Assembly: GCA_013824085.1 (NCBI GenBank)
Contig: PNNF01000018.1
Location: 1 to 47,829, forward strand
Direction of reading: 5' to 3'
DNA: 47,829 nt
Origin: Chlorobiaceae bacterium
GTDB lineage: Bacteria > Bacteroidota > Ignavibacteria > Ignavibacteriales > Ignavibacteriaceae
The notes under the pieces were generated by a model that saw nothing but the letters and a program-made list of their open reading frames with translations, was not told where the DNA came from and did not search any database. This document shows positions 8,356 through 20,671 of the stretch, piece by piece. Position 1 is the first letter of the stretch. Every line of letters begins with the position of its first letter. A program made the position numbers and the translations under genes.

Positions 8356-10695
8356 ATGTTAAATAATCTAAAATTACTAAAATCTATTGTAGAACTTCTG
8401 AATAAATCTTCTTCCAATCCGGGGAATTTACCAGATAGTATTTGTGAATTATTAGTTCAAGAATTAGAGATTCAGGCAGCTGTTATTTTTAGAGTAACTG
8501 AGTCCAGCAATTTCACTTGTATTGGGAAATCAGATTCTTCAAAAAAATCTTATCTACAAAATGGTCTTTACAATTGTGCATTCTGTAAGCAAGTAAGCGG
8601 TCCCGACAAAAAAATCGCATTGCATTCAGATCAGAATTGTCAGATAAAAGCATCAGATTTCGATCTGCACGAAGCTTGCTTTTTTATTACAGCTAAACAA
8701 AATTCTAAATTTTTAATTAAGATTGCTCAAAAAAATCCATTCACTCCAACCGAAAAAGATGGCATACAAATTATCGGAAATTTTTTAGAATATATTTTAT
8801 CTGCTTGGATTGATGACTCATACACAGGCAAGACAGATATCAATAAAATTCTTTTTGACATTTCTAATGAGTTGAGAACACCGACTAATAGTATAGTTGG
8901 CTTCACATCATTGTTGAGTGATGACAAGCTTTCATCAAAGCAAGTTGATTATGTTTTAAGCTTACGTGACAACGCTCAAAATCTTTTAGGACTAATTAAC
9001 GATTTAATTGACATTACAAAAGTTGAATCTAATCTTATCACAAATAATAAAATTTTAATTTCGTCAAAATCTTTTTTTGAAGAAATATTAAATCAATTTG
9101 ATGATCATAAAAAATATAATTTAGAATATGTAATTGAAAATTCGATTCCAGATAATTTTTATTTTGATGGTGCAAAGCTCAGATATATTGTTCAAAACTT
9201 TTTAGCATACTTTGTTTCGATTTCAGAAGGTGGAAAAATTCAAATAAAAATTTCCGCTCCTAAAGGAAATCAAATAAAAATTCAAATCCTCAATAGTTCC
9301 ATAGTTGTTCCTTCTTCGCGTATAAAAGATTTGTTTACGCCAAATACTTTGATCGATCTTGGCAACCAGAGAATAAATAAATTGTCTGTGCTTGGTTTAC
9401 ATCTCGCAAAAAAATATCTCGATCTGCTTAATTGTGAACTCGACTTGATGAGCGCAATCGGAAAAGGAACTGTCTTAAATATTAATCTTACTGTTCAAGA
9501 ATTTTCTGCAATTGAAAATCAATTAAGTGCACTTCCAAAACCCGGCATCAAAAATAAAGTTTTAGTAATTGAAGATGATTACGCTACATCCAAACTCTTG
9601 ATGAATTATCTCAATAAATGGGGCTATCAACCGAGCAATGTAACGAGTGGTGAAAAAGCTTTGGCGCTGCTTGAGAAGGAACAGTTCCTTGCAATCATTA
9701 CTGACATTGTGTTGCCTGATATTAATGGTTTGGAATTACTGAAAAAAATTCGTGAAATAAAATCTGCAAAGAATACTCCGATAATTGTTTGCTCTGTTGA
9801 AGCTGAACAACAAAAAGCTTTTCTTATGGGAGCAGTTGAGTATTTTGTAAAGCCAATAAAATATAAAGATTTAGTTGAAGTGCTTACAAGCTATCGACTG
9901 AAAAAAGATTCTAATATTCTTTGTGTTGATGATGATGTTCCTACACTTCATCTAATAAAAAGTGCAATTGACTCCGTTGGTTATAATTCAATTGCTGAAG
10001 CTCATTCTTCTAAAGTAATGGACTTAATTAAGAATATCGATTTAGACCTTGCAATTATTGATCTTGAGATGCCTGAGATAAATGGAATTGAATTAATTAA
10101 ACTGATTAAATCTAATCCAAGATTTGCAAATCTTCCGATAATAATTTATACCGGTAAAGAAAATTTTGAACACGATCTAAAAGGTATCGATGGATTGTTC
10201 ACAGAGCTGCTAAGCAAACGATCTAAAAATATTGAAGACCTTGCAGAAACAATCAACAAGATGATCAATCGATATGAAACTCCAACACTTCCTGAAGATG
10301 CTGCAAAATCTCAAGAAGGTTTTAAGATTTTATTAGTTGAAGATTATAAGCATTCACAAATTATTGTTACACGTTTATTAAAAAAGAATAATTTTACTTC
10401 TGTCGTTGTTGTTGAAAATGGCGCTGAAGCAGTTGACCAAGTAAAGAAACAAAAATACGATTTGATTCTGATGGATATGCAAATGCCTGTAATGAATGGG
10501 TTTGAAGCTACTGAAAGAATTAGACAAATACCAGATTACAAAACAACTCCAATAATTGCATTGACTGCATTTGCGATGAAAGGGGATCGCGAAAAATGTC
10601 TCGAAGCTGGTGCAACTGATTATATTCCTAAACCAATCGATAGTCATGAATTTATCGAAAAAGTTAAATTCTATACAAATCAAAATACAAATTAG
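8356..10695 (+). CDS. triple-receiver protein with degenerate histidine-kinase core
   Basis: The 779-residue cytoplasmic protein has an N-terminal GAF-like region (about 15-150) with a cluster of Cys/His. A HisKA-like segment (about 160-225), a HATPase-like region (about 250-380) and three receiver domains (about 400-515, 520-645, 656-775) follow. The receivers keep their phospho-acceptor Asp residues: D450 in ITDIVLP, D569 in IIDLEMP and D707 in LMDMQMP. The kinase core is broken. The usual HELRTP reads NELRTP (N171), the N-box Asn is Tyr285, the G1 DxGxG reads NSSIV (313-317), and G2 reads LSVLGL (343-348). It should not autophosphorylate or bind ATP normally, and probably takes phosphate or signals from other kinases. 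gltX starts 11 bases downstream. A TAnnTTTG promoter candidate precedes it. Confidence 0.88.
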   Translation: MLNNLKLLKSIVELLNKSSSNPGNLPDSICELLVQELEIQAAVIFRVTESSNFTCIGKSDSSKKSYLQNGLYNCAFCKQVSGPDKKIALHSDQNCQIKASDFDLHEACFFITAKQNSKFLIKIAQKNPFTPTEKDGIQIIGNFLEYILSAWIDDSYTGKTDINKILFDISNELRTPTNSIVGFTSLLSDDKLSSKQVDYVLSLRDNAQNLLGLINDLIDITKVESNLITNNKILISSKSFFEEILNQFDDHKKYNLEYVIENSIPDNFYFDGAKLRYIVQNFLAYFVSISEGGKIQIKISAPKGNQIKIQILNSSIVVPSSRIKDLFTPNTLIDLGNQRINKLSVLGLHLAKKYLDLLNCELDLMSAIGKGTVLNINLTVQEFSAIENQLSALPKPGIKNKVLVIEDDYATSKLLMNYLNKWGYQPSNVTSGEKALALLEKEQFLAIITDIVLPDINGLELLKKIREIKSAKNTPIIVCSVEAEQQKAFLMGAVEYFVKPIKYKDLVEVLTSYRLKKDSNILCVDDDVPTLHLIKSAIDSVGYNSIAEAHSSKVMDLIKNIDLDLAIIDLEMPEINGIELIKLIKSNPRFANLPIIIYTGKENFEHDLKGIDGLFTELLSKRSKNIEDLAETINKMINRYETPTLPEDAAKSQEGFKILLVEDYKHSQIIVTRLLKKNNFTSVVVVENGAEAVDQVKKQKYDLILMDMQMPVMNGFEATERIRQIPDYKTTPIIALTAFAMKGDREKCLEAGATDYIPKPIDSHEFIEKVKFYTNQNTN

Positions 10696-10706: not shown

Positions 10707-12164
10707 ATGGTCAGAGTTAGATTCGCTCCAAGCCCTACGGGGTATTTACATATTGGTGGTCTTAGAACCGCACTTTATAATTATCTTTTTGCAAAAAAGA
10801 TGAACGGAATTTTTATCCTTAGAATTGAAGATACCGATCGTGCAAGATTTGTAGAAGGTGCAATTGAAAATTTAATTTCAACTTTGCGTTGGGCTGGTTT
10901 AGATTATGATGAAGGCATTGATAAAGACGGCGGATTTGCTCCTTATATGCAATCACAAAGATTGGACATCTATCAAAAACATATTCAAGATTTATTAGGA
11001 AATAAAAAAGCATACTATTGTTTTTGTGAACAAGCACGACTTACTTCATTAAGAGAAGAACAGAGTAAACTTGGACATCAACCGAAGTATGATAAACATT
11101 GCCTGAAACTAACTGATACTGAAATACAAAATAACTTAGAAAATAAAATTCCATTTGTTGTTAGATTAAATGTTCCAGTTTCAGAACCAATAATTTTTTT
11201 TGACATTGTTCGTGGTGATGTTGAATTTAATAGCGATGTTTTAGATGATCAAATACTAATGAAGAGTGATGGTTATCCAACTTATCATTTAGCAAATGTA
11301 GTTGATGATCATTTAATGGAAATCACTCACGTAATTCGTGGTGAAGAATGGCTCTCCTCAACTCCAAAACATATTTTACTTTATAAATTTTTTAATTGGG
11401 AAATTCCAATCTTCGCACATCTTCCTCTTTTGTTAAATTCTGATCGTTCTAAATTAAGTAAACGACAAGGCGATGTTGCAGTTGAGGATTATCGCGCCAA
11501 AGGTTACTTGAAGGAAGCTCTCGTTAATTTCGTTGGGTTGCTCGGTTGGACTGCAGGCGATGATAAAGAATATTATGAGTTAGATGAAATGATAAATGCT
11601 TTCTCTTTAGAAAGAGTAAATAAATCAAGTGCTGTGTTTGATGTGCAAAAGTTAAATTGGCTAAACGCAGAACATCTAAGAAAAAAACCGATACTCGATT
11701 TACTTGAAATGTTAAAAGTAGAATTGCAAAAAAGTAGATTCAATACAAAAGTATTTAGTGATGATTACTTATTAAAAATTATTGATGCAATGCTACCACG
11801 AGTCTCTTTTACGCATGAATTTGTTTCAACTGCAGAATACTTTTTTGATATTCCAAATTCGTATGACGAAGAGACGATTAAGAAAAGATGGAAGAGTAAC
11901 AGTGCAGAATTATTGTTAAAATATTTAGAAAAAATTGAAGCACTGAATTCTATTTCAAAAGAAGAATTTGAACAAGCACTTCATAAAACTGCTGAAGAAA
12001 ATTCTGCAAAGAATGCAGATTTAATTCATCCATTAAGATTGGCATTATCTGGCGTTGGTGGTGGACCAGGAGTTTTTGATATAGCAGTGATTTTAGGACT
12101 TGATGAAGTAAAAAACAGAATTAAAATTGCAATTCAAAAAATTAGCAATGGAGAGAATAAATGA
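10707..12164 (+). CDS. gltX: glutamate-tRNA ligase
   Basis: The 485-residue class I synthetase charges tRNA-Glu with glutamate. The HIGH motif is in [19 protein letters not shown] (His15-Gly18) and the KMSKS motif is KLSKRQGD (249-256). The stretches [10 protein letters not shown] and VIRGEEW are typical of GluRS. Length and order fit the bacterial enzyme, with the anticodon-binding helical domain in the last 170 residues. It follows the receiver protein by 11 bases and overlaps glnS by four (ATGA), so the three genes are probably cotranscribed. Confidence 0.96.
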
Positions 12165-18557: not shown

Positions 18558-19235
18558 ATGAAAATTTTATTGATAGAAGACGAAAAAAAAGTTTCTGCCT
18601 TTATAAAAAAAGGGTTGGAAGGGGAATATTACACAGTCGATACCGCATTCAACGGAAAAGATGGATTGGAGATTGCACTCAAATTTAATTTTGATTTAAT
18701 TATTCTTGATGTGATGTTACCTTTTCTTGATGGCATTACCGTTACAAAGGAGATTAGAAAAGCAAAAGTAACAACGCCAATTTTATTATTGACTGTAAAG
18801 AATAGTGTTAAAGATAAAGTTGAAGGACTTGACGCTGGTGCAGATGATTATTTAACCAAACCATTTGCGTTCGAAGAATTAATTGCAAGAGTTCGTGCAT
18901 TATTCAGAAGAAAAGAAAATATCCCATCACCTACACTTTCAATTGCAGATCTTATCGTTGACCAACAACAACACAAAGTTAAACGTGGCGAGAAAGAAAT
19001 TATTTTGACACCAAAAGAATATGCAATACTCGAATACCTATTGATAAATAAGAACAATGTTGTTTCACGTACCAAACTTGTTGAGCATGTTTACGCATAT
19101 AACTTCGATACAGGCACAAATGTAATCGATGTTTACATTAATAAACTCAGGAACAAAATTGATTTCGAATCAGACTCGCCTTTGATCCATACTATTCGCG
19201 GTGTTGGTTACACAATTAAAGAACTTGAAAACTGA
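18558..19235 (+). CDS. OmpR/PhoB-family response regulator
   Basis: The 225-residue protein has a receiver domain (1-118) with acidic pocket E7/D8, phospho-acceptor D51 in LILDVMLP, and the conserved Thr and Lys in LLTVKN and YLTKPF. A winged-helix DNA-binding domain follows (about 128-222), with LTPKEYAILEYLL and GTNVIDVYINKLRNKID and the closing IRGVGYTIK. Its stop overlaps the sensor-kinase start by one base (TGATG), so the pair works together. Sequence style resembles CusR/MprA-type regulators; the target genes are not evident. Confidence 0.94.
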   Translation: MKILLIEDEKKVSAFIKKGLEGEYYTVDTAFNGKDGLEIALKFNFDLIILDVMLPFLDGITVTKEIRKAKVTTPILLLTVKNSVKDKVEGLDAGADDYLTKPFAFEELIARVRALFRRKENIPSPTLSIADLIVDQQQHKVKRGEKEIILTPKEYAILEYLLINKNNVVSRTKLVEHVYAYNFDTGTNVIDVYINKLRNKIDFESDSPLIHTIRGVGYTIKELEN

Positions 19236-20671
19236 TGCTATCGAACATTCTACTTAAATTAAAACCTTTTGTCTTAACAACTAGATTCAAGACAACACTT
19301 TGGTATTCACTTTTATTTTTAACTCTCGAGATTGCTCTTGGAGTTATTATCTATCTTTATCTTTATGAAAGTTCAATCAGTAGTCTTGACAACTCTCTTA
19401 AAGCACAAGCAAATTCAATTCTAAAAGTTGTTGTTGATAGACGAATTAATCTTGATGACTTCAAGCCCGATGCTACTTATTCAAAACCTGAAGATCTCGT
19501 TGGTGATTTAATTTACGACGCAGTTATTTCAAATCGCCGAAACAATTTTATTCAAGTCTCTTTTAGAAATAGAATTATTTTTAAGTCGGGAAACTTGGAA
19601 GGGAAAAAATTAGAATTTCCTCACTTGGAAGATGAGCTGTCATTATTCGAATTTCGGGACACAACACTTTCAGGTGATGCGATTAGAGGCGTGCAATTAT
19701 TGAAGAATCGTTATAAGGTAATTGTAGCATTCCCAATTGAATCAGTGCGACAAACACTGAGTAGCTTAGTGGATATTTATATTCTGATTGCTCCTTTCTT
19801 TTTACTGATTGCTTTCCTTGGTGGAGCAGCAATATCAGCAAGGGCTTTAGCAAGGATTGATGCGGTTATAAAGAAGACTGAAGAAATAACTGCACAAAAT
19901 TTAAATGAAATAATTGGTGGCGAAGAATTTAATGATGAGTATGGTCGTTTGGTAAAAACAATGAATGCGATGATACTGAGAATAAAAAATTCAGTTGAGT
20001 TTTTAAATCAATTTTCTGTAGCAGCTGCACATGAATTAAAAACACCACTGACAATATTAAGAGGTGAAATTGAGGTTGCGCTAAAATCAGAATTAACTCC
20101 TCCCGAGTATGTCGAGATATTGAAGAGCAATTATGAAGAAACAATTCGCCTCATCAAAATTATTGAGAATCTTTTCTTCATAGCCAAAATTGATAATTCA
20201 TTGATTGAGTTGAATAAGCAATCGATTAAATATGATGATTATGTTTCGTCCATTGTGAATAGCTTGCAAACTCTTGGTAAAGATAAAAATGTTGCAATTA
20301 GTTTTATCTCTAACTTTAATGGTTATTTGATGATAGACAAAGAGATTATGCAGCAAGCAATAATTAATCTTATAGACAACGCAATTAAATTCAGTTATGA
20401 AAATAATCAAGTTGAAATTTCCTTGCTCGAATCAAATAACAAAATTGTCTTATCAGTTGCAAACTTTGGCGAAGGAATTCCACAGGAATCTTTAACTAAA
20501 ATATTTGAGCGTTTTTATAGATTAGAATCTTCTCGCAACAGAAAAACTGGTGGAGTAGGACTTGGTTTATCAGTAGTAAAATCAGTAGTGCAATGGCATG
20601 ATGGTGAAATAAAAGTCGAGTCTGAACCGAATCAAAAAACTATTTTCTCAATCATACTTGACAAAACTTAA
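19235..20671 (+). CDS. HAMP-containing sensor histidine kinase
   Basis: The 478-residue membrane kinase has two transmembrane segments (about 20-42 and 170-195) bracketing a periplasmic sensor of some 125 residues. A HAMP domain follows (about 195-250). The HisKA motif AAAHELKTPLT carries His266, and the HATPase shows the N-box LIDNAIKFS, the G1-type NFGEGIP (with Asn for the usual Asp) and GVGLGLSVV. It has the QseC/CusS layout and is the partner of the preceding regulator. The usual G1 DxGxGI reads NFGEGI, a mild departure seen in some active kinases. The signal is unknown. prmA begins in the stop codon (TAATG). Confidence 0.93.
   Translation: MLSNILLKLKPFVLTTRFKTTLWYSLLFLTLEIALGVIIYLYLYESSISSLDNSLKAQANSILKVVVDRRINLDDFKPDATYSKPEDLVGDLIYDAVISNRRNNFIQVSFRNRIIFKSGNLEGKKLEFPHLEDELSLFEFRDTTLSGDAIRGVQLLKNRYKVIVAFPIESVRQTLSSLVDIYILIAPFFLLIAFLGGAAISARALARIDAVIKKTEEITAQNLNEIIGGEEFNDEYGRLVKTMNAMILRIKNSVEFLNQFSVAAAHELKTPLTILRGEIEVALKSELTPPEYVEILKSNYEETIRLIKIIENLFFIAKIDNSLIELNKQSIKYDDYVSSIVNSLQTLGKDKNVAISFISNFNGYLMIDKEIMQQAIINLIDNAIKFSYENNQVEISLLESNNKIVLSVANFGEGIPQESLTKIFERFYRLESSRNRKTGGVGLGLSVVKSVVQWHDGEIKVESEPNQKTIFSIILDKT

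Follow-up and report, generated by a model that had tools for sequence, protein, structure and literature searches.

Gene and domain architecture

What can a protein built as a hybrid histidine kinase do when its kinase residues are gone and its receivers are intact? This question is raised by a gene at positions 8356..10695 (forward strand) of the window, that is, the whole 47,829-nucleotide stretch of DNA analysed here. The open reading frame encodes 779 amino acids without an internal stop, and its product was assigned the architecture GAF-DHp-CA-REC-REC-REC, that of a pseudo-hybrid histidine kinase, by combining Pfam, an AlphaFold2 model and orthologue alignment. Pfam matches were obtained for HisKA (residues 168-225, E 3e-11), HATPase_c (residues 271-379, E 6e-7) and three Response_reg domains (E 3e-70). 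The AlphaFold2 model (mean pLDDT 78.5, pTM 0.41; 73 aligned sequences) contained the two DHp helices (residues 162-188 and 194-224), an alpha/beta domain resembling CA and folds for all three receivers; its placement of the domains relative to one another is unreliable. From the Pfam matches, the alignment and the model, the DHp (HisKA) helices were delimited to 8839..9027 (residues 162-224) and a degenerate CA/HATPase_c domain to 9049..9495 (residues 232-380); the Pfam-defined receivers follow at 9553..9900 (residues 400-515), 9910..10275 (residues 519-640) and 10321..10680 (residues 656-775), all on the forward strand.

The first-pass annotation of this DNA had described a pseudo-kinase carrying three receivers, which stands, and had not included the N-terminal sensor domain (residues 1-153; 8356..8814, forward strand). 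When the N-terminal 155 residues were modelled alone (pLDDT 88.5), Foldseek matched them to GAF domains in the PDB (3trc, 4g3v and 3ci6); a sequence search of the PDB with the same domain returned no relative. Four to five cysteines are conserved in this domain (Cys 30, 74, 77, 95 and 108, kept in 63-68 of 72 full-length orthologues), which suggests a putative metal or redox site.

Directly downstream lies gltX, encoding glutamyl-tRNA synthetase (10707..12164, forward strand), and no kinase gene adjoins the query gene within the window. Elsewhere in the window, an ordinary two-component pair lies at 18558-20671, where an OmpR-type response regulator precedes a histidine kinase whose AHELKTP box is intact, and an open reading frame with several CxxCH motifs at the window start (19-717) encodes a multihaem cytochrome-like protein.

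Loss of kinase residues

In the query the acceptor His is replaced by N171 (8866-8868) within SNELRTP and the N-box Asn by Y285 (9208-9210), while G1 reads NSSIV (residues 313-317; 9292-9306) where DxGxG is expected and G2 reads LSVLGL (residues 343-348; 9382-9399) where GxGLGL is expected. Sequence and alignment confirmed all of these first-pass readings, together with the phospho-acceptors Asp450 (9703-9705), Asp569 (10060-10062) and Asp707 (10474-10476); each receiver also carries the acidic pair, Thr/Ser and Lys, and its phosphorylation machinery is complete. The further statement that every catalytic element had been lost holds for the His and the ATP motifs but was too broad, as the H-box residues E172 (His+1) and T175 (His+4; 8878-8880) are retained. 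Willett and Kirby (PMC3510030) assign separate roles to these positions in HisKA kinases: the acidic residue at His+1 is required solely for the kinase reaction, and Thr/Asn at His+4 solely for the phosphatase reaction. Measured against a canonical hybrid histidine kinase, the query thus lacks the DHp phospho-acceptor and the N/G1/G2 ATP-binding motifs and keeps the full receiver set, and it shows the kinase fold minus catalytic residues of a DivL-type histidine pseudokinase. With the acceptor His and all ATP-site motifs lost, the protein is, as read from its sequence, kinase-dead. In its own genome, 30 of the 33 HisKA matches were fetched, and 29 of these have the acceptor His, the query being the sole exception.

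Distribution and recurrence of the loss

Using the receiver part as the query, we found a match in 147 of the 164 genomes of the order (class Ignavibacteria), nearly always at one place; many of the 17 genomes without a match are incomplete. Full-length relatives across the order share 41-60% identity, the named ones coming from Ignavibacteriaceae and ‘Ignavibacteriae’ metagenome genomes. A survey of the class outside the order returned no full-length orthologue, the next best matches there being intact kinases of 1061 residues with ~32% identity, and in the literature that was searched no triple-receiver pseudokinase from the order was described. Among 57 surveyed genomes with the gene, comparison of coordinates by hand showed gltX as the next gene downstream, on the same strand, in 46; upstream genes vary, and no conserved upstream neighbour was found. 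The gene is absent from one surveyed genome (G023), where the gltX contig appears atypical, so this is no clear loss; that contig (L233:1-701, G023:C78) begins GC-rich with a MoxR-like open reading frame, unlike the order, and is possibly foreign.

Not one of the 72 full-length orthologues retains all seven of the kinase residues scored (H171, N285, D313, G315, G317, G345 and G347). Position 171 is variable, with Asn commonest (22), followed by His and Gln (14 each), Ser (7) and other residues, and position 285 is Asn in 10 of 72. His and the N-box Asn occur together in L003 and L034 only, both of which retain most of the ATP site, with DTSPG for DxGxG in L003; a third orthologue (L027) has the full ATP set, yet Pro at the His position. 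The query belongs to a clade of 14 members from ten genera (SH-aLRT 98), all of which lack H171, N285, D313, G317 and G345 and carry Thr at His+4. A tree of the receivers alone, with intact paralogues as the root, requires at least seven changes in the presence of His, or 16 losses if regain is barred, the latter (Dollo) count leaning on weakly supported forks of a quick tree. Because orthologues with His exist, kinase loss is recurrent across lineages rather than one ancient event, and it is not recent and isolated. A recent isolated loss, betrayed by orthologues in which His and the ATP lid are intact, had been named beforehand as one finding that would overturn the first-pass reading: some do keep His, but none has the full motif set, and the loss in the query is common to its whole clade.

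Constraint on the receivers

The receivers show the opposite pattern. Asp569 is kept in 72 of 72 orthologues, Asp707 in 71 and Asp450 in 67, the other five having Asn in an otherwise preserved REC1; all three Lys and the switch Thr of REC2 and REC3 are present in 72 of 72. The sole substitution of Asp707 is a Val in LMVMQMP (L065:2042-4369), where a sequencing error is possible. Mean pairwise identity among the orthologues was.32 for GAF,.44 for HisKA and.33 for HATPase, against.72,.70 and.81 for REC1, REC2 and REC3. The alpha-1 helix is the usual docking helix of receivers for kinases and HPt proteins; in REC3 (10348-10386) its identity was.99 versus.49 for alpha-2, and in REC1.87 versus.33.

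As a control, we used a paralogous triple-receiver hybrid kinase from the same genomes (25 sequences), in which all nine catalytic positions are intact in 25 of 25. Here the direction of constraint was inverted, the kinase (HisKA.67, HATPase.55) being more conserved than the receivers (.36,.34 and.57); therefore, a loose kinase with frozen receivers is no general property of these genomes.

A receivers-only orthologue of 394 residues (L078, genome G058) was also found upstream of gltX. It begins just before REC1 (MQDIESTLSQLPKP). A GGAG precedes it as a possible ribosome-binding site, and clpP lies 245 bp upstream. Since its own DHp is gone and REC3 alpha-1 is unchanged, the docking partner of REC3 in that genome would be another protein. 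Two genus-mates (G363 and G364) have full-length genes, so this form, known from one draft assembly, either arose recently or reflects an error in that assembly. Together with the identities relative to the paralogue control, it supports the view that the receivers are the selected part. At Pfam sensitivity, G058 has 26 HisKA matches and no HPt match. A dedicated HPt relay was considered and rejected: the one HPt match in a second genome (G000) lies inside another hybrid kinase, and this scarcity in both genomes makes a general HPt output unlikely.

Proposed function and alternative explanations

Repeated loss of the kinase next to nearly unchanged receivers makes it most likely that the protein collects signals from other kinases and does not emit its own. 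The protein is real, conserved and kinase-dead, a variant form within histidine pseudokinases whose function and partner are putative; we put the probability at roughly 0.57 that this non-catalytic homologue acts as a phosphoryl-receiving hub in a RetS-like manner, with receivers charged in trans. The first-pass interpretation, a phosphate sink, scaffold or integration hub fed by other kinases, is partly supported, both the feeding kinases and the choice among these roles being putative. In this model, phosphoryl groups would come from other histidine kinases of the cell that dock on the receivers. Having ceased to produce phosphate, the dimeric DHp/CA core would position the receivers or the partner kinases and may also drain phosphate through transmitter phosphatase action; the state adopted by the dimer would depend on the Cys-bearing GAF domain. 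Counting against the hub are the missing kinase neighbour, the loss of the REC1 Asp in five orthologues and the His that RetS keeps; receiver conservation could also reflect binding that is independent of phosphorylation.

By reciprocal best matches among their HisKA proteins, three distant genomes (G000, G058 and G037) have about 11 kinases in common. Of these, the core kinase L091 (G000:C7:70266-70466) has the DHp helix that varies least, identical at 18 of 21 positions in the three, followed by L109 and L086; as a lead only, L091 and then the other two are candidate partners of REC3. A wider scenario, which we regard as tentative and rather doubtful, would make the gene an order-wide core signalling node. 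A hybrid kinase would here have become a hub of receivers only, its kinase being lost many times in parallel and, in one case, the entire sensor-kinase half being deleted, and receiver 3 would offer a constant docking site to one or several kinases in every cell.

The kinase core itself remains under selection. In the 58 orthologues without His, position 171 varies freely (entropy 2.72 bits) while N178 (0.22), I180 (0.51), L187 (0.55), G182 (0.63) and D216 (0.67) are constrained, a pattern consistent with preservation of the DHp dimer and of its docking face. In close pairs, kinase-region dN/dS was low, pointing to purifying selection on the dead core (in the pair L036/L037 of the query clade, HATPase dN 0.000 and dS 0.41, HisKA ratio 0.035), by a simple Nei-Gojobori count in which most pairs are saturated. 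The entropy values also speak for a reading that overlaps with the hub and locates the action in DHp: by pairing or dephosphorylation, the kinase-dead dimer would act on a partner kinase or on that kinase's receivers, with the query's own tethered receivers as regulatory docking domains. Thr or Asn at His+4 in 60 of 72 orthologues agrees with it, as does the proposal that the pseudokinases DivL and ChrS pair with active kinases (PMC9491836). Nevertheless, His+4 is Ser, Ala or Leu in the other 12, the receivers are conserved far above DHp, and one orthologue without any DHp still has its receivers, and we consider this reading possible but unlikely.

Two further explanations keep the receivers at the centre. 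In one, they hold partners together as a scaffold that works without phosphorylation, their Asp serving only the fold or Mg binding; the five REC1 domains that have exchanged Asp for Asn and kept the rest speak for it, but a role without chemistry would hardly account for the near-invariant set of D569, D707, all Lys and the REC2/REC3 Thr, and such a scaffold is improbable. In the other, the receivers are charged not by kinases but by small phosphodonors such as acetyl phosphate, as the complete active sites and the lack of an adjoining kinase gene would allow; small donors have no need of the almost invariant kinase/HPt docking face on REC3 alpha-1, and we rate this lower still.

The remaining two explanations are very improbable. 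Gene decay or an assembly artefact could account for kinase motifs lost many times and for possible whole-gene losses in the genomes without a match, but the frame is open in nearly all 72 orthologues of an order-wide single-copy gene, close pairs show very low dN/dS, and the loss is common to a ten-genus clade; a pseudogene was rejected on the open frame, retention and dN/dS, and the earlier judgement that this is not a decaying gene is upheld by these data and by receivers more conserved than the kinase. Residual or non-canonical kinase activity would concern at least the His-bearing orthologues, two of which have His, the N-box Asn and most of the ATP site, but one of these has an altered G1 and the query has neither acceptor nor ATP motif.

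Comparison with known systems

Most descriptions of pseudo-histidine-kinases concern single cases. In the present order, orthologues of one gene show all stages, from His-bearing forms with a near-complete ATP site through fully dead ones to receivers alone, and an intact paralogue alongside serves as control for these stages. This makes it testable what stays selected in a histidine kinase after catalysis is lost, and whether the real output of a hybrid kinase can lie in its tethered receivers; for most of these proteins, ‘hybrid sensor histidine kinase’ as an automatic label would be misleading.

The nearest homologues found are intact kinases with three receivers (about 25-33% identity), namely the control hybrids (L207-L231) and, from a different family within the class, L115 and L117, which also end in an HPt-like segment. 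These HK-REC-REC-REC proteins with an HPt-like end (L115:274-3459 and L117:429-3614) give a plausible picture of the ancestral architecture.

A PDB sequence search with the query kinase core returned GacS and RetS as top matches (RetS E 2.6e-17), both also high by fold. RetS has two receivers and a periplasmic sensor. The query differs in having three receivers, in its soluble GAF domain with conserved Cys, and in being a core protein of the whole order. The mode of action proposed for the query would resemble that of RetS of Pseudomonas aeruginosa, in which the HATPase is degenerate, REC2 is a phosphate sink and the HExxT box has phosphatase activity, these elements acting on GacS (PMC5992135). 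Degenerate HATPase, tandem receivers with Asp and a HisKA box with ExxT are shared, and RetS lacks autokinase activity as is predicted for the query. RetS keeps its His, however, and the query has NELRT in place of HExxT, with E and T kept; because the His is lost, the query may work like RetS and is not classed as RetS.

DivL, by comparison, is not known to carry receivers. This Caulobacter pseudo-histidine kinase (PMC9491836, PMC12189002) matches the query core by fold (4q20), but acts on CckA and has different sensor domains. RodK of Myxococcus xanthus is a kinase with three receivers, as is the intact paralogue, but an active one that passes phosphate to its own third receiver (PMC3868531), a transfer not predicted for the query, which has neither the acceptor His nor the ATP motifs. 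Subfamily II ethylene receptors (PMC4730734) likewise combine GAF with a degenerate histidine kinase, some isoforms adding a receiver, but these are plant membrane proteins with at most one receiver.
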